Shown here piece by piece: positions 10,174-60,256 of a DNA stretch of 64,000 nucleotides. Positions within the stretch are counted from its first letter, which is position 1; each line of letters starts with the position of its first letter. Made by a program: the position numbers and the translations under genes. The notes beneath the pieces were generated by a model. It was not told the DNA's origin. It did no database searches and saw nothing but the letters and a program-made list of their open reading frames with translations. Source of the stretch: Candidatus Kapaibacterium sp. (lineage in GTDB: Bacteria > Bacteroidota > Ignavibacteria > Kapaibacteriales > HRBIN21); NCBI GenBank assembly GCA_025059875.1, contig JANXCT010000008.1, positions 1-64,000 on the forward strand, written 5' to 3'.

Positions 10174-11079
10174 TTATGCCTTTTCCGGTGGCTGAGGGGA
10201 GGGTTCCTTCAGGAGACGCTCCAGGAGCTCAACGAGCTGTCGGAGCCGGGTAAGGAGCTCCTGCCGGTCCGGCTCTGGGAAGGGGAGAATGCTCTGGAGT
10301 TGTTCAGCCAGTTGTTGGAGCTCTGAGCGCAGAAGGGTTTGGAGCTGCTCTACCTGCACACTGAGCCGCTCTAAACGATCCACTGGGGCTGAGTACGACT
10401 CCAACAGCCGTAGCAGGTGGCGTTGGAGTAACTCCAACTCTTGCTCACTCTGGCGAGCTCGCTCCTGCGCCTTGGCCAGCTCCTGCCGAAGCTGCTCCCA
10501 TTCCTCTGGAGAGGCCCCCAGCTCTAGCCGACGCTTCAGCTCCGCGTTCTCCTCCTGAAGGGCCAGAAGCTGCTCCGAATAGGAAGCAAGCCGCTGCTCA
10601 CGCTCCTGGAGCTGAATCCGCAACGCTGCAAGCTCCGCCACCACGTCCGAGGAGCGTGCCTGCTGGAGCTGATCGCGGCACTCCTCCAGCTCCTTCTGCC
10701 GTGCATAGAGCTCGTGGTTGCGGCGGACAAGCTCCTGCTGGGCTAATCGCAACTCCTCCTGAACTCGTCGCAGCTCAGCCTGGCAGCTCTCCAACTGAGG
10801 CTGCAGGGAGGAGAGCTCCTCGCGGAGTTGCTTGCACGTCTCCTCGGCCTCTCGAAGCTGCTGCCGTAAAAGCTCGCGTTCTTGCTCTAACTGCTCAACC
10901 GTAGCTTGCCGCTCGTGAAGTTGGGCCACTTCGCGGCGAAGTTGCTGGAGCTGGTTACGCAGACGGAGATTCTCCGCCGCCACCTCCTGATAGCGCCCAC
11001 CGAAGAGACGTAGCCGCTCCCAGAGCCGCAACAGAGCAGCCTGGACCTCCGGACTGGGCTGTGGAGGATGAAGGTCCAT
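10174..11079 (-). CDS. coiled-coil protein between pheT and zapA
   Basis: A 301-residue protein, almost entirely Glu/Gln/Leu/Arg-rich heptads from about residue 30 to 285, with no signal peptide or membrane helix. The start ATG overlaps the pheT stop by one base (TGATG), so translation is coupled. A coiled-coil gene between pheT and zapA is common in related genomes; the link to ZapA suggests a structural or division role, but no enzymatic motif is visible. Confidence 0.8.
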   Translation of the reverse strand: MDLHPPQPSPEVQAALLRLWERLRLFGGRYQEVAAENLRLRNQLQQLRREVAQLHERQATVEQLEQERELLRQQLREAEETCKQLREELSSLQPQLESCQAELRRVQEELRLAQQELVRRNHELYARQKELEECRDQLQQARSSDVVAELAALRIQLQEREQRLASYSEQLLALQEENAELKRRLELGASPEEWEQLRQELAKAQERARQSEQELELLQRHLLRLLESYSAPVDRLERLSVQVEQLQTLLRSELQQLAEQLQSILPFPEPDRQELLTRLRQLVELLERLLKEPSPQPPEKA

Positions 11080-13490
11080 CAGCGGCGCAGCTGCGCTCCG
11101 AGTTGCTGCTCCACCTCAGAGATGATCCGCTCCAGAACTGGAGTGATCTCCTCTTCTCGCAGTGTTCTCTCGCGGGAGCGGAAGCGGAGAGCAAATGCAA
11201 CGCTCCGCTTCCCCTCTCCAAGAGCTGGAGAGGTGTAGACGTCGAAGAGCACCACTTCTTCCAACCACTCCCCGGCCACCTGCCGGATGAGCTCTATGAA
11301 GCGTGTAACGGGGAGAGTGGCATCGGCTACGAAGGCTAAGTCGCGTCGTAGGGCAGGATACTCGGCTACCGGTGCATACTGCGGAGGTGGCCCAACCCAC
11401 CGCTGTAGTGCCACAAGGTCCAAAACCCCTACAAAAGCCGCCTGCCCCACTTCCATGCTCTTCAAGACCCTTGGGCGCAGTTGTCCAATCCATCCTACCG
11501 GATCTCCCCCGCAGTAGAGGCGCAGTGCCGTAGCTGGAAGAATCCAGGCTGGCGTCTCCTCCCGCCAGGGTCGCCACTCCACATCCGCGATTCTAAGACG
11601 CTGCAGTAGCTGTTCGGCCACGCCCCGGAGATCGTAGAAATCCGTCTCGCGCTGGTGGATTCCCCACTGCAACGGAGCAGCCATGCCGCTCAGGAGTAGC
11701 CCAAGCTGGAGCCGCTCTTCGTAGTCACTGAGCTGCTGCCCGTCACCTCCACGCCGCCGGAAGCTCTTGCCCACTTCAAAGATCCGCACCGTCCTCTCTC
11801 CTACTCGCACGTTGTGTGCCAGCACCCGAACGAGCGAAGGGACCAACGACGGACGCAGCACTGAGGCCTCAATACCCAGAGCATTGACTAACTGAACTGG
11901 CTGCTGATCCCACTGTTGCGCCGTTGCGGGATCGATCAGGACCGGCGTAAAGACCTGCTGGAACCCCCACTCCACGAGTGCAGCCACCACTGCCTGCTCT
12001 ATGGCTAGGGGACAGAGCTCCTCCGGTAGCGGCTGTAGCTGGAGCGGTAAATAGGCACTCTCAGCCGCAGGGATACGGTCGTAGCCATACAGTCGTGCGA
12101 CCTCTTCAACGATGTCGATCTCCTCGGAGATATCAGCCCGGAAGAGTGGTACACGAAGCAGGCATCCATCTCCCGTCTGAGCCTCTACGCGGAATCCTAA
12201 GCGCTCTGCAAGCTCCACGACGTGGGAGGGCTGAAGCTCCACTCCCAGGACCTGATTGACACGGCTATACCGCACCAGCACACGCCGGCTGTTACTGGGG
12301 GGCTGACCTACCAGCAGTGGCGCCGTCATCGTCCCGCCACCAAGCTCTACCAACAGTTGTGCTGCACGAACGAGTGCTGGCACAACACCCTGCGGGTCCA
12401 CACCGCGCTGAAAGCGGTACGCAGCCTCCGTCTCTAAAGCATGGCGCCGAGCCGTGCGTCGGATGACTGTGGGGCGGAATAGAGCCGATTCTATCAGAAC
12501 ATGCCGCGTCGTGCTCGTCACCTGCGACTCCTGTCCTCCTATCACTCCAGCCAGTGCCAGAGGCTTCTGAGGGTCAGCGATGAGGAGGTCCTCAGAAGTG
12601 AGTCTGTACAGCCGTCCGTCCAGCCCACAGAAGTGCTCCCCGGGTTCTGCCCATCGGACTCGAAGCCGGTACTCGGCAATCGTGGCGTAGTCAAAGGCAT
12701 GCAGCGGCTGCCCGAGCTCTAACATGACGTAGTTCATCACGTCCACTGGCAGCGTATGCGGGCGAATGCCAGAGCGCCACAAGCGGACCTGCATCCACAG
12801 GGGGGCTTCCTGTGGCGATATCTCAGTCACCACGCAACACGCGTACAGTGAACACCCCTCCTGTGCCCCTATCTCTACGTCTACCTCTGCCTGAGGCAAG
12901 TCTGGTAGTGCCCCTACCTCTGGGAATTGCAAGGGCAGCCGACCGTAGGCAGCCAACTCACGAGCAATTCCAAGGTGGCTCGCACAGTCGCCTCGATTCG
13001 GAGTCAATGCGACCTCGTAGATGATGTCCTCCAAGAACGGCGCAGCCTGCACCAACGGGGTCCCTGGTGGGACATCAAATGGTGGCTCCCAAACCTCCTC
13101 CGCTTCCTCCCCAAGCATCAGCTCCCAGCGACTACAAAGCATCGCCCTAGACTCAACGCCAGCAATCTCTCGAGGCTGGATTCTCACCCCAGTCTGTGGC
13201 ACTATAGCCCCCGGCAACGCTACAACTGCTCGTTGCCCCTGACGAGGAGCCACACCGGCAACGATTTGGAGTTGCTCCGTTCCAATCCCTACACGGCAGA
13301 CCCAGAGCCCATCACGGTATGGGTGCGGAGCAATCTCTTCCACCACCCCGACCACAAACCCAGCGTATCGGCCGCGCCAGTCTTCCACAGCCTCCACTTC
13401 CAGGCCTAGGTTCGTCAAGATATCAGCAACCTCTGCCGGTGTCCACGGCAGCGCACAGAAGTCTTGCAACCACCGATAGGAGACCCGCAT
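11079..13490 (-). CDS. pheT: phenylalanyl-tRNA synthetase beta subunit
   Basis: Beta chain of the alpha2-beta2 enzyme that charges tRNA-Phe; 803 residues. Domain order is as expected: N-terminal MRVSYRWLQDF, tRNA-binding EMAP/OB domain (about 40-150), B3/B4 editing region (LTPNRGDCASHLGIARELA), B5 domain (DIVEEVARLYGYDRIP) and C-terminal ferredoxin-like anticodon domain (YPALRRDLAFV). The ATG at 13490 is chosen because it begins with the family's usual N-terminus; an upstream in-frame start at 13529 adds 13 unlikely residues. pheS is not in this window. Confidence 0.96.
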   Translation of the reverse strand: MRVSYRWLQDFCALPWTPAEVADILTNLGLEVEAVEDWRGRYAGFVVGVVEEIAPHPYRDGLWVCRVGIGTEQLQIVAGVAPRQGQRAVVALPGAIVPQTGVRIQPREIAGVESRAMLCSRWELMLGEEAEEVWEPPFDVPPGTPLVQAAPFLEDIIYEVALTPNRGDCASHLGIARELAAYGRLPLQFPEVGALPDLPQAEVDVEIGAQEGCSLYACCVVTEISPQEAPLWMQVRLWRSGIRPHTLPVDVMNYVMLELGQPLHAFDYATIAEYRLRVRWAEPGEHFCGLDGRLYRLTSEDLLIADPQKPLALAGVIGGQESQVTSTTRHVLIESALFRPTVIRRTARRHALETEAAYRFQRGVDPQGVVPALVRAAQLLVELGGGTMTAPLLVGQPPSNSRRVLVRYSRVNQVLGVELQPSHVVELAERLGFRVEAQTGDGCLLRVPLFRADISEEIDIVEEVARLYGYDRIPAAESAYLPLQLQPLPEELCPLAIEQAVVAALVEWGFQQVFTPVLIDPATAQQWDQQPVQLVNALGIEASVLRPSLVPSLVRVLAHNVRVGERTVRIFEVGKSFRRRGGDGQQLSDYEERLQLGLLLSGMAAPLQWGIHQRETDFYDLRGVAEQLLQRLRIADVEWRPWREETPAWILPATALRLYCGGDPVGWIGQLRPRVLKSMEVGQAAFVGVLDLVALQRWVGPPPQYAPVAEYPALRRDLAFVADATLPVTRFIELIRQVAGEWLEEVVLFDVYTSPALGEGKRSVAFALRFRSRERTLREEEITPVLERIISEVEQQLGAQLRR

Positions 13491-27670: not shown

Positions 27671-28351
27671 TTAGAACAGGTAGAACATCGTGAAGATGAA
27701 CACCCAGATGAGGTCTACGAAGTGCCAGTACAGCCCAGCTATCTCCACGTTCGCGTACGATCCACGCCGGTCGTATACCCCTTTAGCAACTTGACGGGCG
27801 ATGATCCCCAAGTAGATCACCCCGCTGAGCACATGCAGCCCATGGAAGCCTGTCAAGGTGAAGAAGTACGCCCCAAACTGTGGCGGTCCGAAGGGATTCC
27901 ACCAAGGTCGGACGCCGTAGTCAACGATCAGATGCGTCCACTCGTACGCCTGGCAGCCCACGAAGGTTAGCCCTAAAGCCATCGTCAGGAGTAGGTAGCG
28001 GATCGTCTCCTTCTTCCGCCGCTCGTAAGCATTCGCCACGGCTAGCGCCATCGTTCCGCTACTGCTGACCAGAATGAAGGTCATGACAGCAATTAACAGC
28101 AGCGGAACTTCCGACCCTCCGACGTGAAGGGCGAAGACCTTTCCCGCATTGACCCAGCTACCAATGCTGGCTCGACTCGTAGCGTAACTGACAAGGAAGC
28201 TACCGAAGATGAAAGCGTCCGACAGGATAAAGATCCACATCATCAGTTTCTGCCAGCTCACCCCGAAGGGCGAAACTCCACCTGCCCATACGGAGGGGCG
28301 CTCAACCTGTTGTGCCATAACTTCAGCCGCCATCGCTCCCTTTACACTCAT
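27671..28351 (-). CDS. ctaE: cytochrome c oxidase subunit III
   Basis: 226 residues, several membrane helices, with the COX3 motifs GFHGLHVLSGVIYLG, the conserved Glu in YEWTHLIV and WHFVDLIWVFIF at the end. Translation is coupled to the preceding gene (TAGGATG); in-frame ATGs at 28333 and 28318 are alternative starts. It is the canonical subunit III; a second, more divergent copy lies just upstream. Confidence 0.9.
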   Translation of the reverse strand: MSVKGAMAAEVMAQQVERPSVWAGGVSPFGVSWQKLMMWIFILSDAFIFGSFLVSYATSRASIGSWVNAGKVFALHVGGSEVPLLLIAVMTFILVSSSGTMALAVANAYERRKKETIRYLLLTMALGLTFVGCQAYEWTHLIVDYGVRPWWNPFGPPQFGAYFFTLTGFHGLHVLSGVIYLGIIARQVAKGVYDRRGSYANVEIAGLYWHFVDLIWVFIFTMFYLF

Positions 28352-28352
28352 C

Positions 28353-28979
28353 CTACCGTGCTTGCAACACTGCTAGCAAGCCAATCCAGACCAGCGCCAT
28401 GAAGTGCCAGTAGGTAGCCACTGGTCCAAGGCGATGCCGGAAGAGGAGTGTACGCTTCCGGACGGCAAAGAGCAGCAAGAGGGCAACAATACCGCCAACC
28501 ACATGAAGCCCATGGGCCGCCGATAGTACGTAGAAGAAGCTAGCTGCTGGAAAACTAGGCAATCCAATCCCGGCACGCACCAGCTCCATCCATGCGACAG
28601 CTTGTCCGACGAGAAACAGGAGACCTAGTCCCACACCAATCCACAGCAGGCGCAGGGCTAAGGTATCCACTGTCCGGTGGGCTCTGACGTGCCACTGTAC
28701 GGCTCCCAGTGCAGCGCTGCTAATCAAAAGCACAACAGTGTTCAACCACACGATGCTTGGCAATCGGAGCATACGCCCGTCAATGCCAATGCGGACTATC
28801 GCAGCACTGCTCAGGGCAGCAAAGAGCATCGTTACCCCGACGATGAGCAGCCATACGAAGAGCTGCCCCGTCGGCATCAAAGGGCCACCACCCCATGGAC
28901 TACCGTCTCCCCCTGGGGCTTTACCCTGTCCTGCAATATCCCAGGTTCTCTGTATGCTCGCCTTCACAAACGGCATCAC
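28353..28979 (-). CDS. second subunit III-like protein of the oxidase
   Basis: 208 residues with about five helices; the C-terminal motifs AAHGLHVVGGIVALLLL and TYWHFMALVWIGLL show the COX3 family. It overlaps ctaD (ATGA). Adjacent duplicate subunit III genes are known in Bacteroidota/Chlorobi caa3 operons; they may form a split or paired subunit III. Confidence 0.85.
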   Translation of the reverse strand: MMPFVKASIQRTWDIAGQGKAPGGDGSPWGGGPLMPTGQLFVWLLIVGVTMLFAALSSAAIVRIGIDGRMLRLPSIVWLNTVVLLISSAALGAVQWHVRAHRTVDTLALRLLWIGVGLGLLFLVGQAVAWMELVRAGIGLPSFPAASFFYVLSAAHGLHVVGGIVALLLLFAVRKRTLLFRHRLGPVATYWHFMALVWIGLLAVLQAR

Positions 28980-30883
28980 AGAGCACCACCGTTTGTGGAA
29001 CCATCCACCTTACCAGGCGAACCCCCACCGTTGGTACCGTTGGTTCCACCATTCACGGCTGCCGACGGTATATTGACTGCCGCTGGAACGTACCTATGGT
29101 ACCGCTCTCCTGTCGGTTCCTGGTCTAACGGTACTGTCTGCGGGACGAAATCTTGGGAAGCCCCTGGGACACTATAGTCGTACGCCCAACGGTAGACAAC
29201 TGGAAGCTGCTCCCCCCAATTCCCATGAGGTGGAGGAGACGGAGCTTGCCACTCCAGCGTCGTGGCTTGCCAGGGATTAGCCTCTGCCCGCTTACCCCGC
29301 AGCAGGCTGTAGACGACGTTGAAGAGGAAGATGAACTGCGCCGCTCCAGTAATGAACGCCGCTATGCTAATGAAGACCTGAATCGCCTGGGCATCTACTG
29401 GGAGGTACTGGAGCGCGTTGAAACTGTAGTACCGTCGCGGGACTCCAAAGAAACCAAGGTAGTGCATGGGGAAGAAGATGGCGTACATTCCCACAAAGGT
29501 GAGCCAGAAGTGCAGCTTCCCCAACCCTTCGTGCATCATCCGCCCAAACATCTTCGGGAACCAGTGGTATATCCCTGCAAAGACCCCAAACACAGAGCTG
29601 GTCGCCATGACGATATGGAAGTGCGCCACCACAAAGTAGGTATCGTGGAGCTGAATGTCGATCGTCGGATTCCCCAAGAAGATTCCTGTCAGCCCCCCGG
29701 TCACGAAGGTTGACACAAAGCCGATAGCGAACAGCATAGGCGTCGTGAACCGGAGCTTACCACGCCAGAGCGTTCCTAACCAGTTGAAGGTCTTTACCGC
29801 CGAGGGCACGGCAATGATCAGCGTCGTCAGCGTAAAGGCGGCACTGAGCCAGATGTTCATCCCGCTGACGAACATGTGATGCCCCCAGACGATAAAACTG
29901 AGGAAGCCGATCGCGATGATGGAGTAGACCATCACCCGATATCCAAAGATCGGCTTCCGGGAGTTGTTGGAGATGATTTCGGAGGCAATCCCCATAGCCG
30001 GCAGGATGAGGATGTACACCTCCGGATGTCCCAAGAACCAGAACAAATGCTGCCACAGCAGGGGATTGCCTCCCTCACGAGCAAGATGGTGTCCTGCTAC
30101 CACCACGTGGTCCAAGTAGAAGCTGGTCCCAAGATGCCGATCCAGCAACAACAGTACGACGCCTGCAAAGAGTGCCGGAAAGGCCAGCAATCCTATGATT
30201 GCTGCTACGAAGAGGGCCCAAACTGTCAGTGGCAGGCGCATCATCGAGAGGCCCTGCGTCCGAAGATTGAGCACCGTCGTGATGTAGTTTAACCCGCCCA
30301 TAACTGAGGACACAATGAAGACAGCCATGGAGATCAGCCACAGTGTCTGCCCAAGTCCAGAGCCAGCCGCTGCCTGTTCTACAGCGCTCAGAGGCGGATA
30401 GGCCGTCCACCCTGATCCTGCTGCCCCGCCGGTGACGAAGAGCGACGCCAACATGACGAGGCACGACAGCAGAAAGACCCAGTAACTCAGCATGTTGACA
30501 AACGGGAATGCCATGTCCCGAGCGCCACATTGGAGGGGGATCAGCAGGTTCCCAAACCCACCGAGGAAGATAGCCGTCAGGAAGAAGAAGATCATCAGCG
30601 TCCCGTGCATCGTCATCATCGCCAAATACGCATCGGGACGCAAGACTCCGCCCTCAAACAATCCCGGAAAGAGCTTTGCGGCAATCGGCACAGACTCACC
30701 CGGCCACGCCAGCGGGATCCGCATCAGCCAGGACATCACCAGCCCGATGATCCCCATGATGCCGGCGGTGATGATGTACTGGATGGCGATGACTTTGTGG
30801 TCTGTGCTAAAGATGTATCGCCGCCAGAAGCTCTTCGGCTCATGGTGGGTAGCAACCGTTTCTATCGCATGAGTCGTTGCCAT
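28976..30883 (-). CDS. ctaD: cytochrome c oxidase subunit I (A1-type heme-copper oxidase)
   Basis: 635 residues, the catalytic subunit reducing O2 to water with proton pumping. Metal ligands are present: MHGTLMIFF (heme His), WFLGHPEVYILILPAMG (Cu-B His and the cross-linked Tyr; the Glu marks the A1 D-channel), HHMFVSG (Cu-B) and HDTYFVVAHFHIVM (heme ligands). Twelve or more helices; the C-terminus is Gly/Asn-rich (VNGGTNGTNGGG). It follows ctaC by 15 bases. The organism is thus able to respire oxygen. Confidence 0.96.
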   Translation of the reverse strand: MATTHAIETVATHHEPKSFWRRYIFSTDHKVIAIQYIITAGIMGIIGLVMSWLMRIPLAWPGESVPIAAKLFPGLFEGGVLRPDAYLAMMTMHGTLMIFFFLTAIFLGGFGNLLIPLQCGARDMAFPFVNMLSYWVFLLSCLVMLASLFVTGGAAGSGWTAYPPLSAVEQAAAGSGLGQTLWLISMAVFIVSSVMGGLNYITTVLNLRTQGLSMMRLPLTVWALFVAAIIGLLAFPALFAGVVLLLLDRHLGTSFYLDHVVVAGHHLAREGGNPLLWQHLFWFLGHPEVYILILPAMGIASEIISNNSRKPIFGYRVMVYSIIAIGFLSFIVWGHHMFVSGMNIWLSAAFTLTTLIIAVPSAVKTFNWLGTLWRGKLRFTTPMLFAIGFVSTFVTGGLTGIFLGNPTIDIQLHDTYFVVAHFHIVMATSSVFGVFAGIYHWFPKMFGRMMHEGLGKLHFWLTFVGMYAIFFPMHYLGFFGVPRRYYSFNALQYLPVDAQAIQVFISIAAFITGAAQFIFLFNVVYSLLRGKRAEANPWQATTLEWQAPSPPPHGNWGEQLPVVYRWAYDYSVPGASQDFVPQTVPLDQEPTGERYHRYVPAAVNIPSAAVNGGTNGTNGGGSPGKVDGSTNGGAL

Positions 30884-30898
30884 GGGGAGCCAAGCATC

Positions 30899-31729
30899 CT
30901 ATTGAGACAGACCAAGGGTCTTCGCCAACGTCGGCTGTTGAGCTAACCAGGTTTCAAAGGCAGTATCCGACTCTACCACCATCTGCCCCCGCATAATGTA
31001 ATGCCCCTGCCCGCAAAGCTCTGCACACGGGATGTCGTAGGTGCCGGTCTTCGTAGGGATGAACCAGAACCGTGTCGTCATCCCTGGCACAGCATCCTGC
31101 TTGACTCGCAGCACAGGGACAAAGAAGCTATGGAGTACATCCTTGGAGTTCAAGTAAGTGACGACTGGCCTGTTGACAGGGAGATGCAGCTCCGTTGCAA
31201 TGATGTCGTCCTTCGCCGCTGGATCGTTAGGATCGATCCCGAACGGGTTCGTATCACTGACGTACCGAGGATGGAACCGTCCCAGCTGTCCATCCAGCCC
31301 CGGGTACTGGAAGCGCCAGGCGAACTGCTCTCCAATTACCCGCACTGGAAGCGCATCCTCAGGTGGTGGCCCTTGGATCCAGAACCACGCCCACGTTCCC
31401 GCCGCCACCAGTCCAGTCATCGTCACCGCAGGAATAACGGTATAGACAACCTCCAGCGGACGGTTCTCCAGGTAGAAATATGCCCGCTGCTCCGGTGAAC
31501 GCGCCCGATAGCGCCAGACGAAGTAGGCTAACAACAGATGCACCAGCACGAAGACTATCCCCGTCACCACCAGCGTGACAATGAAGAGTTGGTCCATGAC
31601 CGCACCATGGACTGATGCCAGAGGTGGCAGCCACCACCACTGGTCCCCAATCGTGATGACGCCAATTCCCACTAGTAGCAAGACAGCCAGGGCAAATAGC
31701 ACTCCGTGGTATGAATCTCGGGGTGCCAT
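30899..31729 (-). CDS. ctaC: cytochrome c oxidase subunit II (CuA)
   Basis: 276 residues: two membrane helices (about 12-33 and 46-72), then the cupredoxin domain. CuA ligands appear in SKDVLHSFFVP (His) and CAELCGQGHYIMRG (two Cys, Glu, His, Met). No heme-c motif is fused. The ATG at 31729 is preferred because AGAGGAA lies 5 bases upstream; the frame extends to 31816. First gene of the oxidase operon. Confidence 0.95.
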   Translation of the reverse strand: MAPRDSYHGVLFALAVLLLVGIGVITIGDQWWWLPPLASVHGAVMDQLFIVTLVVTGIVFVLVHLLLAYFVWRYRARSPEQRAYFYLENRPLEVVYTVIPAVTMTGLVAAGTWAWFWIQGPPPEDALPVRVIGEQFAWRFQYPGLDGQLGRFHPRYVSDTNPFGIDPNDPAAKDDIIATELHLPVNRPVVTYLNSKDVLHSFFVPVLRVKQDAVPGMTTRFWFIPTKTGTYDIPCAELCGQGHYIMRGQMVVESDTAFETWLAQQPTLAKTLGLSQ

Positions 31730-31773
31730 CGCTTCCTCTCTTCTGTAACGGCTCAGAGTCAACTGGCGCCACA

Positions 31774-31781
31774 AAAATAGT
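31774..31781 (-). promoter_or_regulatory. candidate -7 element (TATTTTTG) for the oxidase operon
   Basis: The minus strand upstream of ctaC reads CACTATTTTTGTGG, an exact TAnnTTTG, about 45 bases before the ATG. The octamer and its flanks resemble those before tRNA-Thr and secG. Position is good to a base or two. Confidence 0.45.
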
Positions 31782-31820
31782 GTTTGGCGAACAACGTGCT
31801 GATGATTGTCACTCACACCT

Positions 31821-55100: not shown

Positions 55101-56267
55101 ATGAGCCTCCTCTGGGGAGGGATGTGGATTGCGGCGCTGGGCCTCTGTCAACCTGTGGCAGCAATTCCGACCTTTACGCTGCTGACAAGCAACCGATGCA
55201 TCGCTTGCCACGTTAGCCCAACTGGCGGGGGCCTTCGGAGCGAGCTGGGATGGTACACAATGCACGACGTTGGGCTCTTCCAGTGGCGTCAACTCGGACT
55301 CGGCTGGCTAGAAGAGCGGTGGCGACAGCAGGGAAACGGCTTCTGGGGAGGGCGCCTGCTACTCGGGGTTGATGCCCGTCTACAGGGCTTCCAATCTCAC
55401 AATCCAACCCTCCAGCCCCGATGGCGCCTCTTCCCGATGCAGGGTGCGCTCCACATCGGAGTCCAGCCAATCAAGGCGGTATCGGTCGAAGCGACCCTTA
55501 ACGGCGGCCGCCTCGTCTTCCCTGGCCAGCAGCGATGGAGCGGCTCCGCCACCCTCCAGCCACTACCAGTACTACCACAGCTCCGGGTAGGATTCTTCCA
55601 ACCAGCGGTGGGTCTGCGCTACGACGACCATACGATGCTTACCCGGCGCCTGCCGGGAGCGCGTTACGACTCGCCGCAGGAGACTTACCTCCTGGCACCG
55701 AACTTCGCGCAGTGGGGCACACACCTACAGTGGTTCTCGCTCCCTTGGCTCTCGCTGACGGCCGGTGTCTTTCGAGCAGGAGCCCTAGCAGACGTTAGAC
55801 TGCGTAGCCCTACGGGACAGAGTCCTCTCACAGCTGCTTCCCAACTGGTATGGAACGGACACCTTTGGCTGACACCAAGTGCTACCCTATGGAACTTTTC
55901 GCTGGGAGCCTCGTGGCTGGGTAACCGCGATTTCGATCTCTGGAATGCCTTTGCTGGAACTGGCTGGATTGACCGCTTCGCCATCTGGGCAGAAGCTAGC
56001 ATACTGCGGGCTCCTGTACTGTGCCGCTGGACGATTTCGGCAGAGGCCAGCCTCTGGCTCTGGAATGCTGTCCTGCCTTACTTCCGTGCTGAACATGGAG
56101 CCGTCACGGAACCAGCCTTCGCAGCAACCCCGTATACGACGCAACTCGTGCTTGGAGCCCAGCTCTTCGTACTCCCGTTCGTGGAGGTACGTCCAGAGTA
56201 CCGATGGGCGGATACTGAAGCTTACCGCAGTGGGAGAGTTGCCGTCCAGCTCCATGTGTTCTATTGA
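55101..56267 (+). CDS. outer-membrane barrel with an N-terminal CxxCH heme motif
   Basis: 388 residues. Signal peptide (LLWGGMWIAALGLCQPVAA), then TSNRCIACHVSPTGGGLR, a c-type heme-binding CIACH near residue 40, then a long run of alternating aromatic beta-strands ending HVFY, typical of a barrel. A heme at the mouth of a porin-like barrel suggests electron transfer across the outer membrane or a heme sensor; this is inferred. The ATG at 55101 begins the signal peptide better than the in-frame 55074. Confidence 0.72.
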   Translation: MSLLWGGMWIAALGLCQPVAAIPTFTLLTSNRCIACHVSPTGGGLRSELGWYTMHDVGLFQWRQLGLGWLEERWRQQGNGFWGGRLLLGVDARLQGFQSHNPTLQPRWRLFPMQGALHIGVQPIKAVSVEATLNGGRLVFPGQQRWSGSATLQPLPVLPQLRVGFFQPAVGLRYDDHTMLTRRLPGARYDSPQETYLLAPNFAQWGTHLQWFSLPWLSLTAGVFRAGALADVRLRSPTGQSPLTAASQLVWNGHLWLTPSATLWNFSLGASWLGNRDFDLWNAFAGTGWIDRFAIWAEASILRAPVLCRWTISAEASLWLWNAVLPYFRAEHGAVTEPAFAATPYTTQLVLGAQLFVLPFVEVRPEYRWADTEAYRSGRVAVQLHVFY

Positions 56268-56279
56268 GGCAGCGCAACG

Positions 56280-56579
56280 ATGCGAGGGTGGAAACTTCTA
56301 CAGTGTCTTGGTGTGCTCGTCGCTATATCCACCATCTCCCTTTGGCTGCTCCATGGCAGGCACATCTTCACGAAGGACCGACAAATGGTCATCTACCGCG
56401 AAGCTGACCCTATCTTTGGCACAACGCGTGAGCGTGTAGAGTGGAGACCAGACTTCCGGCTAGGTTTAGATGTTGCCGGTCCACTAGTTGTGGCCGGCAT
56501 CGGGGCGTGGCTGTTTGGCTGGTGGCGACAACGACAGCACCGGCTAGCAATGTCCCATAAGGATGGCGATACCTCATGA
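56280..56579 (+). CDS. small membrane protein in the redox cluster
   Basis: 99 residues, two membrane helices (about 8-25 and 63-82) around an outside loop rich in charged residues. It begins 12 bases after the barrel gene and overlaps yceI by four bases (ATGA). No family recognised. Confidence 0.6.
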   Translation: MRGWKLLQCLGVLVAISTISLWLLHGRHIFTKDRQMVIYREADPIFGTTRERVEWRPDFRLGLDVAGPLVVAGIGAWLFGWWRQRQHRLAMSHKDGDTS

Positions 56580-57256
56580 CAGTCCGTCTGATCAGCTGCT
56601 TGCTAACGGGCCTTCTCGCTTTGTCCTCTACTACCTCTGCCGCAACTCGGCTCCCCCTTCCCGTCAATCAGAAGAAGACCGTAACCCTATCGAACAATGT
56701 TGGCCCCAACCTGTGCAAATTCCTAAGCTCGGCCCCACTCGAAGAGTTTGAGGGAACCGCAGACGGTATCTCTGGCAGCTTTACGGTTGACCCTTCCAAC
56801 TTAGAAGCAACCTCGGGTCGTATTCAGGTGACAGTGGCTAGCATGCGCACCGGAATCACCCGCCGGGACGAACACCTCCGGAGCCCTGAGTGGCTAGATG
56901 CCGAGCGATACCCTACCATCAGCTTCGACGTCCGGGAGCTCAAAGAGGTCCGGATTACTGAGCAGAGTCGAGACCGAGCCACCCTCACGGCAAAGGCCGT
57001 TGGGACCTTCACTCTGCATGGTGTATCGAAACCGATGGAGCTCCCTATCACACTAACCTACGTGCTGGAGAATCTCGAGACACGGAAACGGGCCCCTGGG
57101 GACTTCGTCATGGTGCAGAGCGAGTTTACTATCTCGCTGCGCGACTTCAACATCCGCGGGCGTCAAGGGATCGTTGGAAGCCGTGTCGGAGAGACGATTC
57201 GCGTCTGGGTAACCCTCTATGGCTCGACCGCAGCTAGTCCAACAGGCACTCGGTAG
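56576..57256 (+). CDS. YceI-family exported protein
   Basis: 226 residues with a signal peptide (LISCLLTGLLALSSTTSA). The YceI lipocalin-like barrel shows FEGTADGISGSFTVD, RRDEHLRSPEWLDAERYPTI, GTFTLHGVSKPMELPITL and FTISLRDFNIRG. Family members bind isoprenoid quinones or lipids in the periplasm, which fits its redox neighbours. Confidence 0.88.
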   Translation: MTVRLISCLLTGLLALSSTTSAATRLPLPVNQKKTVTLSNNVGPNLCKFLSSAPLEEFEGTADGISGSFTVDPSNLEATSGRIQVTVASMRTGITRRDEHLRSPEWLDAERYPTISFDVRELKEVRITEQSRDRATLTAKAVGTFTLHGVSKPMELPITLTYVLENLETRKRAPGDFVMVQSEFTISLRDFNIRGRQGIVGSRVGETIRVWVTLYGSTAASPTGTR

Positions 57257-57260
57257 GCCG

Positions 57261-57728
57261 ATGTGCAGGGAGACCTCTGCTGACCGACGCCAATTCCTGC
57301 AGGTAACCGCAGCAGTTCTGGGGACAGGTCTATGCCTACCGGCACTTCTCAACTGGCTATCCGGTTGCGTCTCCGAAACCAAACAAGCAACAGAGCCGAG
57401 CGGGACAGTAGAACTGGACCTGTCTAGCGTCCCAGAGCTGCAGCAGGTCGGCGGGGCAGTGAAGAAGCCCTTTGAGCCCTACAACAATGGGCGCAACGTG
57501 CTCATCATTCGACTGGGGCAGATGGAGTTCGTTGCCTTTTCGGTAGCCTGCCCCCACGCGAACTGTGACGTCGGCTACCCCACTGGGGACGTCATACCGT
57601 GCCCTTGTCACGGTGCTCAGTTTGCCGTGCGGGACGGCCGGGTACTGCGAGGACCAGCAGAGCGCCCTCTGCGGCGCTTCCCCTGCGAATATGATGCTGC
57701 CCGCAATGTTCTACGGATAACCTTCTAA
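57261..57728 (+). CDS. Rieske [2Fe-2S] protein with Tat signal
   Basis: 155 residues. Twin-arginine signal DRRQFLQVTAAVLGTG, then the Rieske cluster sites: CPHANCDVGY (Cys, His and a further Cys) and CPCHGAQF (Cys and His), ending RGPAERPLRRFPCEYD. ATG 57261 lies 5 bases after yceI. No cytochrome b is adjacent, so it is not a standard bc1/b6f operon; it may serve an alternative complex or the surface electron chain. Confidence 0.88.
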   Translation: MCRETSADRRQFLQVTAAVLGTGLCLPALLNWLSGCVSETKQATEPSGTVELDLSSVPELQQVGGAVKKPFEPYNNGRNVLIIRLGQMEFVAFSVACPHANCDVGYPTGDVIPCPCHGAQFAVRDGRVLRGPAERPLRRFPCEYDAARNVLRITF

Positions 57729-57760
57729 AGCGTCCGTATCACAGCTAGCCGGAGATGACC

Positions 57761-60256
57761 ATGACTGCTCTCCTACTCTGCCTCCTTGGCTGGGGAATCT
57801 ACTCTGCAGCCGGCTACTCCTCTGGCACCGTCGGCATGACAACCTCGGGTTGCACCTGTCATGGTACCAGCTCGTCTGCAACGACACTGACCGCTCAGAG
57901 TAGTACCGGGAGCTTCCGTACCCGTCCGGGACAGACGCTGAACCTGACCGTCATCGTCGCCCACAGCACTCAGTCTGCCGCTGGAGTCAACATCGCCGTA
58001 CATAATCAGTTTGGGCAGAACGCTGGAAGCCTTTCACCTGGCTCTGGTTCTGGACTGCAACTGTCCAATAACGAGCTTACCCATACTCAGCCGAAGACAA
58101 TGAGCGGCGGACAGGCCTCTTTCAACTTCTCATGGACAGCACCCACGACACCGGGAACGTATACCCTACGCGCCGTTGGGAACGCTGTCAACGGTAACGG
58201 AAATACTAATGGCGACGCATGGAACTTCATGACCCCAGTTACCCTCACTGTTGCTGGCATCACTGTACTAGAGCCCAATGGCGGAGAGACATGGTGCGCT
58301 GGTAGTACCCGAACCATCCGCTGGAACAGCACAGGCGTAGACTACGTTACCATAGAGCTCTCCTCGAATGGCGGACAGACCTGGACAACGCTCGCAACGA
58401 ACGTCCCGGCCTCTTCCGGTAGCTGGAGCTGGACGATCCCATCGAACCAGCAGCCAGGTTCCCAGTACCGCATCCGCATATCCGACGCCTCAGATGCACA
58501 GCTCTTCGACGGCAGCGATGGCAACTTCTCCATCAGCGGTCCACCGCAGATTACCCAGCAGCCGCAGCAGCCACAGCCTGTCTGTGAGGGCACTCCTGTT
58601 ACCCTTAGTGTTGTCGCCCAGGGTACTGGACTGAGCTACCAATGGCGCCTCAACGGCCAGAACATTCCTGGGGCCACGACGGCAACCTACCAGTTCACCG
58701 CTACGACCAGTACTGCTGGCGTCTACGACGTCGTGGTGAGCAATGTCTGCGGTTCGGTCACGAGCGACACGGTACGCCTAACAGTGAAGGAGCGTCCTCG
58801 CATCACACAGCACCCACAATCGCTCACCGTCTGCACCGGCCAACAGGCGATCTTTCGGGTGACAGCCACAGGGACCAACCTCCGCTACCAGTGGCGAAAG
58901 AACGGCACTCCTATTCCGGGAGCCACGACAGCAACGTACACAATTGCCTCCGTCCAACCAGCGGACTCCGGGCTTTACGATGTCGTCGTCTCTGGCGACT
59001 GTGAGCCCCCTGCCTACAGCATGCAAGCCAGACTAACCGTCGTAGAGCCACCCGTCATCACAGAACATCCCCAATCTCAGACAGTCCGCGTGGGCCAGTC
59101 TGTTACCTTCCGCGTGGGAGCCCGTGGAGTGGAGCTACAGTACCAGTGGCGCAAGAACGGGGTTGCGATTGCTGGAGCAACGCGTCCGGAATACACCATC
59201 ACCGCTGCTCAACTCTCGGACGCTGGCTCTTACGACTGCGTAGTCTGGAACAGTTGTGGCCAGACAGTCAGCCGAGCAGCACAATTGACTGTTAGGCAGC
59301 CGGGCCAGCCTGTACTGGCACTGCGGCAATCGTCCGTGGACTTCGGAACGCGAGAGCTCGGGGATAGCGTTGCTGTAGAGCTGCAAGGTGTTGTCTACAA
59401 TGCTGGCGATGATACACTCCGCGTCACGGCTGTTAGTGTCGTAGGTCCACATGCCGCTGACTTCCGACTTCTCAGTGGTGGTGGCAGCTTCACTCTAGCG
59501 CCGCAGCAGGAGCGAACTCTGGCGATTGCCTTCATCCCCAGAGCTTCAGGCGAGCGCACAGCAGAGATCCAGTTTACAGCAAACGTCAGCACACCTCCCA
59601 GCCTTGCCCTGCGTGGCGTAGGTGCAGTCCCGTGGCTCCTCGCTAGCCCGGCCCTCCTAGACTTCGACACCGTAATGCTCGGCACGCGCAAGGAGCTGTC
59701 ACTGAGGCTGATCAACCCCGGACCACTGAGAGTCTCCATCACAGAGCTCTCGCTCGGCGTGTCAGCCCATATGGCGTTTGGACTCGTCAATCCTCCCCAG
59801 ACGCCTGTGGCACTCGACTCCGGGCAGAGCCTTGAGCTGACTCTGCGGTTTGCCCCCATCAACGAGGGCACCTTCTACCAACTCCTGGAGGTGGCATACG
59901 CCGGCAACTTCCGCAGTGACACCTTGCGCGTAGAGATTCGAGGAGTTGGAAAGCAGCCTGCCAGCGTGCAGGAGGAGCTCCTACTAGGAATCGTACTCCG
60001 TGTCCTCCCGAACCCCAGTGCTGAGGTCTTCACTGTGGCGTATACCCTACCCAAGACCACACGGCTCTTCGCCGCTGAAGTCGTGACGAGTGAAGGGAGG
60101 AGGATTCGCCAACTCCCAATAGAGCACCCCACCCAAGGCATCCTGAGATGGGATGGGCGTACAGACTCAGGGGACCTCTGTGCCTCAGGACAATACTGGC
60201 TGCGCCTCTCCCTTGGACACCGCCAGTATGCTATCCCGCTGCTCCTCCAGCGGTGA
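57761..60256 (+). CDS. large T9SS-exported protein with choice-of-anchor V and Ig-like domains
   Basis: About 831 residues. Signal peptide, then a choice-of-anchor-V-like domain beginning GMTTSGCTCHG (a CxCH in place of the usual CxxCH; heme binding uncertain), a Kre9-like domain (LEPNGGETWCAGSTRTIRW, about 170-260), three Ig-like repeats with QWRLNGQNIPGATTATY, QWRKNGTPIPGATTATY and QWRKNGVAIAGATRPEY (about 265-515), HYDIN/ASH-type domains (about 520-725) and a T9SS tail (VLPNPSAEVFTVAYTLPKTT ... GQYWLRL). Start: GGAG 6 bases before ATG 57761. Probably surface-bound. Confidence 0.82.
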   Translation: MTALLLCLLGWGIYSAAGYSSGTVGMTTSGCTCHGTSSSATTLTAQSSTGSFRTRPGQTLNLTVIVAHSTQSAAGVNIAVHNQFGQNAGSLSPGSGSGLQLSNNELTHTQPKTMSGGQASFNFSWTAPTTPGTYTLRAVGNAVNGNGNTNGDAWNFMTPVTLTVAGITVLEPNGGETWCAGSTRTIRWNSTGVDYVTIELSSNGGQTWTTLATNVPASSGSWSWTIPSNQQPGSQYRIRISDASDAQLFDGSDGNFSISGPPQITQQPQQPQPVCEGTPVTLSVVAQGTGLSYQWRLNGQNIPGATTATYQFTATTSTAGVYDVVVSNVCGSVTSDTVRLTVKERPRITQHPQSLTVCTGQQAIFRVTATGTNLRYQWRKNGTPIPGATTATYTIASVQPADSGLYDVVVSGDCEPPAYSMQARLTVVEPPVITEHPQSQTVRVGQSVTFRVGARGVELQYQWRKNGVAIAGATRPEYTITAAQLSDAGSYDCVVWNSCGQTVSRAAQLTVRQPGQPVLALRQSSVDFGTRELGDSVAVELQGVVYNAGDDTLRVTAVSVVGPHAADFRLLSGGGSFTLAPQQERTLAIAFIPRASGERTAEIQFTANVSTPPSLALRGVGAVPWLLASPALLDFDTVMLGTRKELSLRLINPGPLRVSITELSLGVSAHMAFGLVNPPQTPVALDSGQSLELTLRFAPINEGTFYQLLEVAYAGNFRSDTLRVEIRGVGKQPASVQEELLLGIVLRVLPNPSAEVFTVAYTLPKTTRLFAAEVVTSEGRRIRQLPIEHPTQGILRWDGRTDSGDLCASGQYWLRLSLGHRQYAIPLLLQR

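Follow-up and report, generated by a model that had tools for sequence, protein, structure and literature searches.

Five consecutive genes in the window form a real cluster that is widely conserved in a deep lineage of the Bacteroidota. By the window we mean the whole 64,000-nucleotide stretch that was analysed, bases 1-64000 of contig 8 of a 1.97-Mb genome that is 98% complete. The genes lie at 55101-60256, all on the plus strand, and encode an outer-membrane barrel, a small protein, a YceI protein, a Rieske protein and a surface protein (Table 1). We think it probable that this cluster is a Cyc2-like outer-membrane electron-transfer module in which the barrel has a Rieske partner. That it has a redox function at the outer membrane is likely, since the barrel and Rieske genes are conserved together and have multiheme neighbours in relatives, and a first-pass annotation that saw the cluster as redox-active was probably correct.

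Gene layout and conservation

Both the gene calls and the family matches agree with the first-pass annotation, which had described five adjacent plus-strand genes. The block is flanked by dnaA-thioredoxin on one side and rpoD-lipA on the other. The same block is present in three other loci (L034-L036). Its flanking genes in L035 and L036 are those of the window, and the dnaA and thioredoxin genes of L034 are located away from the block.

Table 1. Coordinates of the five genes and of their sequence motifs in the window
Feature	Position	Strand	Remarks
Monoheme barrel (putative heme)	55101..56267	+	signal peptide ~55101-55163; CIACH 55197-55211
Small two-TM protein	56280..56579	+	two hydrophobic helices, conserved K-D...DPLFGT...LGL loop
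YceI-like periplasmic lipocalin-type protein	56576..57256	+	PF04264 1.1e-27
Tat-exported Rieske [2Fe-2S] lipoprotein	57261..57728	+	PF00355; 57261 = best start
Rieske motifs	RR 57285-57290; lipobox Cys 57366-57368; CPHANC 57549-57566; CPCH 57600-57611	+	
Surface protein	57755..60256	+	signal peptide; CTCH 57851-57862; NF041895

Homologues of the barrel occur in 135 of the 197 genomes of the class and in 98 of the 123 genomes of the order. When a profile built from 13 Rieske homologues was run against the order, a Rieske gene was found within 5 kb and on the same strand for at least 90 of 127 barrel genes, in at least 80 of the 98 barrel-bearing genomes. Some barrel genes without a Rieske match lie near contig ends, so that 90 is a lower bound. 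Among the matches listed for the order, the Rieske gene is downstream of the barrel in 90 cases and upstream in none, which rules out a chance neighbourhood. The gaps between the two genes cluster mostly near 40, 350 and 1000-1400 bases, sizes that fit zero, one (the small protein) or two (the small protein and YceI) intervening genes, and the loci that were fetched show the same. The small-protein family sits between the barrel and Rieske or YceI in many loci, and the pair is often accompanied by both the small protein and YceI, with the surface protein present in two families. The first-pass annotation held that the genes would be unrelated if they were not conserved together; barrel and Rieske turn out to be paired across many genera.

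Gene order varies further out. Several further families of the class (L049, L056, L060, L062-L064) have the Rieske gene upstream of the barrel, and the farthest barrel homologues (L070-L073) have a barrel without Rieske. In a sample of the phylum, 60 of the 61 genomes with a barrel match belong to one class of Bacteroidota, and the match in the single genome outside it is limited to 38 plug positions.

The barrel and the Rieske lipoprotein

The barrel protein consists of a signal peptide, a plug of about 60 residues with the CIACH motif and a beta-barrel ending in ...VQLHVFY, which bears out the earlier description of a CxxCH-bearing outer-membrane barrel as far as signal peptide, motif and a predicted barrel signature are concerned. 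It has no Pfam or NCBIfam match, and a profile search of the PDB gave no real match. An AF2 model built from the window barrel and L034-L036 only is mostly beta, at low confidence (pLDDT 53 from 4 sequences). A Foldseek search with this weak model ranked general 16-strand porins at the top, including OmpU, OmpC and the R. blastica porin, with E-values down to 4.5e-7. The hydrophobicity profile of the barrel alignment has 16 amphipathic windows after the plug, and 19 over its whole length versus 11.8 +/- 2.3 in shuffles.

Conservation within the barrel is strict. CxxCH is kept in all 45 aligned barrels, in agreement with a separate 25-row alignment, and the G, R and G that follow it are invariant in the same 45, as are a Met (precursor residue 113) and a D-H pair with His 177. 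The C-terminal residue is Tyr or Phe in 45 of 45. We propose that the N-terminal plug would hold one c-type heme, whose second ligand is probably Met113 or His177 of the barrel (precursor numbering).

In L073 a separate exported protein (10687-11436) adjoins the barrel, with a plug-type segment (CANCHVNPNGGGARN; also given as CANCHVNPNGGG) and a T9SS-like C terminus. Judging from this protein, the plug may be able to occur by itself as a mini heme domain.

One could instead suppose that the barrel CxxCH carries no heme and is a disulphide or metal site, and that the operon is shared for envelope maintenance only. Heme attachment is a prediction, and the host cluster contains no other cytochromes, both of which suit this explanation. 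We consider it very unlikely, in view of the motif in 45 of 45 barrels, the segment of the same type in the exported protein of L073 and a redox partner of the Fe-S type whose ligands are conserved.

This partner scores 45.6 bits against PF00355 (cut-off 20.3) with its C-H/C-H ligands present, and carries a twin Arg (Tat) motif and the lipobox LSGC. Tat motif and lipobox are found in nearly all Rieske homologues, and the [2Fe-2S] ligands are invariant across the 13 that were aligned. The disulphide cysteines (the second Cys of each box) are both present in 30 of 40 homologues and both absent in 10, with no mixed cases, as expected for a disulphide that is gained or lost as a unit. In the Rieske protein of L039 a pattern search missed the boxes and alignment shows them. 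A second Rieske-like protein that has lost the cluster ligands adjoins the first in L052 (8423-9190). A search of genome contigs with the window Rieske protein returned three close relatives only (HRbin21, JAUQPR010000002 and JAUQPL010000008).

The PF00033 search for cytochrome b found no match in the whole genome, which rules out a bc1 subunit. The claim of a Tat-exported Rieske protein without cytochrome b therefore holds, both for the adjacent genes and genome-wide.

In Capnocytophaga, another member of the Bacteroidota, C-X-K-(D/E)2 after the lipobox Cys is the surface-lipoprotein (LES) export signal (PMC5080379). The window Rieske reads CVSETK after the lipobox, which does not match this signal as defined in other Bacteroidota. 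Two or more acidic residues occur at +2 to +6 after the lipid Cys in 24 of 40 Rieske homologues, and a few homologues have CEKDE; these residues are no more than suggestive of surface export.

Accessory proteins, respiratory context and proposed function

The YceI protein scores 97.7 bits against PF04264 (cut-off 23.7), and its PDB relatives include polyisoprenoid-binding YceI proteins. The small protein is probably in the inner membrane, going by its predicted topology. These two would be accessory, with a part in assembly or in lipid or quinone handling.

The surface protein matches NF041895 (choice_anch_V) with 113.4 bits versus a cut-off of 42, and has Ig-like (Ig_3) and choice-of-anchor D/ASH domains and a FlgD-like C-terminal domain (weak FlgD_ig). 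It stands directly 3' of Rieske in its own genus and in L043, L047 and L050 (two families). Its CTCH is a CxCH and not a CxxCH, and homologues have CTCH, CGNCH or CGGVGCH at the site; with such spacing and variability we reject it as a canonical heme motif, and heme on this protein finds no support. No T9SS sorting-domain model matched the C terminus, where FlgD_ig fits weakly. Export of the surface protein by T9SS is plausible because SprA is encoded in the host genome (5.9e-41). The choice-of-anchor-V protein would be a surface component in some lineages. Among related exported proteins (L044:10426-10827, L054:7654-8049 and the choice-of-anchor-V proteins of L043, L047 and L050), CX2CH and CX4CH alternate at one site, so the spacing of this putative heme motif varies.

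The strongest functional evidence, by association, is the multiheme neighbours in relatives. In L065 and L067, which belong to another family, a lipoprotein with 5-6 hemes and an MtrC/MtrF-like domain flanks the barrel-Rieske pair, as do a monoheme cytochrome c, a cytochrome with 13 hemes and a fusion of cytochrome b561 and NapC. Taken as a whole these operons (L065:8375-15468 and L067:7979-15541) resemble a complete extracellular electron-transfer chain. Lipoproteins with 5-6 hemes flank the pair in L068 and L076 as well, and PSCyt1-type heme lipoproteins are found near it in other relatives. The adjacent multiheme cytochromes that had been suggested as something to look for are thus absent at the window locus and present beside the same pair in these four loci.

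Two further explanations can be weighed against these neighbours. The first is a module for respiration or redox stress that works within the periplasm only, with the barrel heme and Rieske shuttling electrons for a periplasmic enzyme or for repair and nothing reaching the outside. The periplasm and inner membrane are indeed where YceI and the small inner-membrane protein would belong, and the full C-X-K-(D/E)2 signal is missing from the Rieske protein of the window (PMC5080379). However, the outer-membrane barrel and the relatives' operon with MtrC-like, surface-type multiheme lipoproteins argue against it, and we regard it as unlikely. Less likely still is a main role of the barrel in solute transport, such as the uptake of metal or heme, in which its one heme would serve for gating or for sensing the redox state and Rieske would be its redox partner. 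The general porin fold, the single heme and the far relatives with a barrel without Rieske are consistent with such a role, but it sits poorly with the multiheme respiratory neighbours in relatives and the very strict conservation of the heme motif and of the barrel Met and His.

The host encodes Alternative Complex III (L089), whose ActA is pentaheme, together with monoheme cytochromes c. It has three COX1-family genes, and one of these is in the window at 28976-30883. Genes for an aa3-type cytochrome oxidase occupy 27671-31816 of the window, on the minus strand. Beyond ActA no multiheme protein scored above the cut-off of PF14522, the sole family searched, in the host genome. Across the order, heme-copper oxidases are present in 96 of 98 barrel-bearing genomes versus 19 of 25 others (Fisher p 0.0009, a value that ignores kinship).

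In the electron-transfer module that we favour, the barrel would exchange electrons with a Rieske lipoprotein whose anchor is in the outer membrane, with both location and path predicted, and Rieske or a soluble cytochrome c would provide the link to the respiratory chain of Alternative Complex III and heme-copper oxidases. Electron uptake from an outside donor seems slightly more likely in the host than export, because the host has oxygen reductases and PF14522 found no multiheme cytochrome beyond ActA. Several points count against the module. A single heme cannot span the membrane alone, the location of Rieske is predicted from sequence signals, the farthest homologues lack Rieske, and PF14522, the single family used, gave no multiheme surface cytochrome in the host. 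A bolder and rather doubtful version is a new type of conduit, in which electrons cross the outer membrane by way of a monoheme porin and a Rieske lipoprotein that may sit on the cell surface, and in which multiheme cytochromes are optional.

If the module is real, profile searches overlook an outer-membrane redox system in a large, class-level lineage of Bacteroidota, because no Pfam or NCBIfam family matches the barrel. Single-heme porins would then extend beyond Cyc2, and a Rieske protein would be at work in the outer membrane, apart from any bc complex. The cluster could also serve as a marker for external electron exchange in organisms otherwise read as oxygen-respiring only.

Comparison with known systems

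The cluster is undescribed in the literature searched, where nothing joins YceI, Rieske and the outer membrane. Literature that pairs YceI with Rieske appears unrelated by title and abstract, and none was found on Kapabacteria and extracellular electron transfer.

Like the Rieske subunits of bc1 and b6f, the window protein has a Rieske domain with CxHxxC and CPCH boxes and a Tat signal. It differs from them in being a lipoprotein in a genome without cytochrome b, in scoring far below the bc1/b6f equivalog cut-offs and in belonging to a family where a quarter of the members lack the disulphide pair. With MtrCAB and MtoAB/PioAB the cluster shares an outer-membrane barrel with redox partners and, in relatives, MtrC-like or multiheme neighbours. 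In the window, however, the putative single heme is on the barrel chain and the barrel is small, and PF14522, the one family used, found no MtrA-like multiheme plug in the genome.

The closest comparison is with Cyc2, a fused monoheme cytochrome-porin and iron oxidase that is defined by AXPXFAR or PXFAR[Q/K][T/Y] just upstream of CxxCH and by PXL 4 residues after it (PMC8406198). The window barrel likewise has a signal peptide, a short N-terminal segment, a porin of about 16 strands and a P-x-F ahead of CxxCH, and its 389 aa exceed the 365-aa limit used for Cyc2. It carries a single N-terminal CxxCH in an outer-membrane porin, with fold support that is weak but consistent. Upstream of the motif, however, it has PTFTLLT (PTFTLLTSNRC), which keeps the P and F and replaces FAR[Q/K], and after the motif it has PTGGG (CIACHVSPTGGGLRSELG) instead of PXL, with a family pattern of GGG-x-R. 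As both FAR[Q/K] and PXL are missing, we do not class the barrel as Cyc2 proper, going by the motif definition. The barrel also differs from Cyc2 in having a Rieske lipoprotein as its partner and in belonging to a family that, in the phylum sample, is nearly confined to one class of Bacteroidota.
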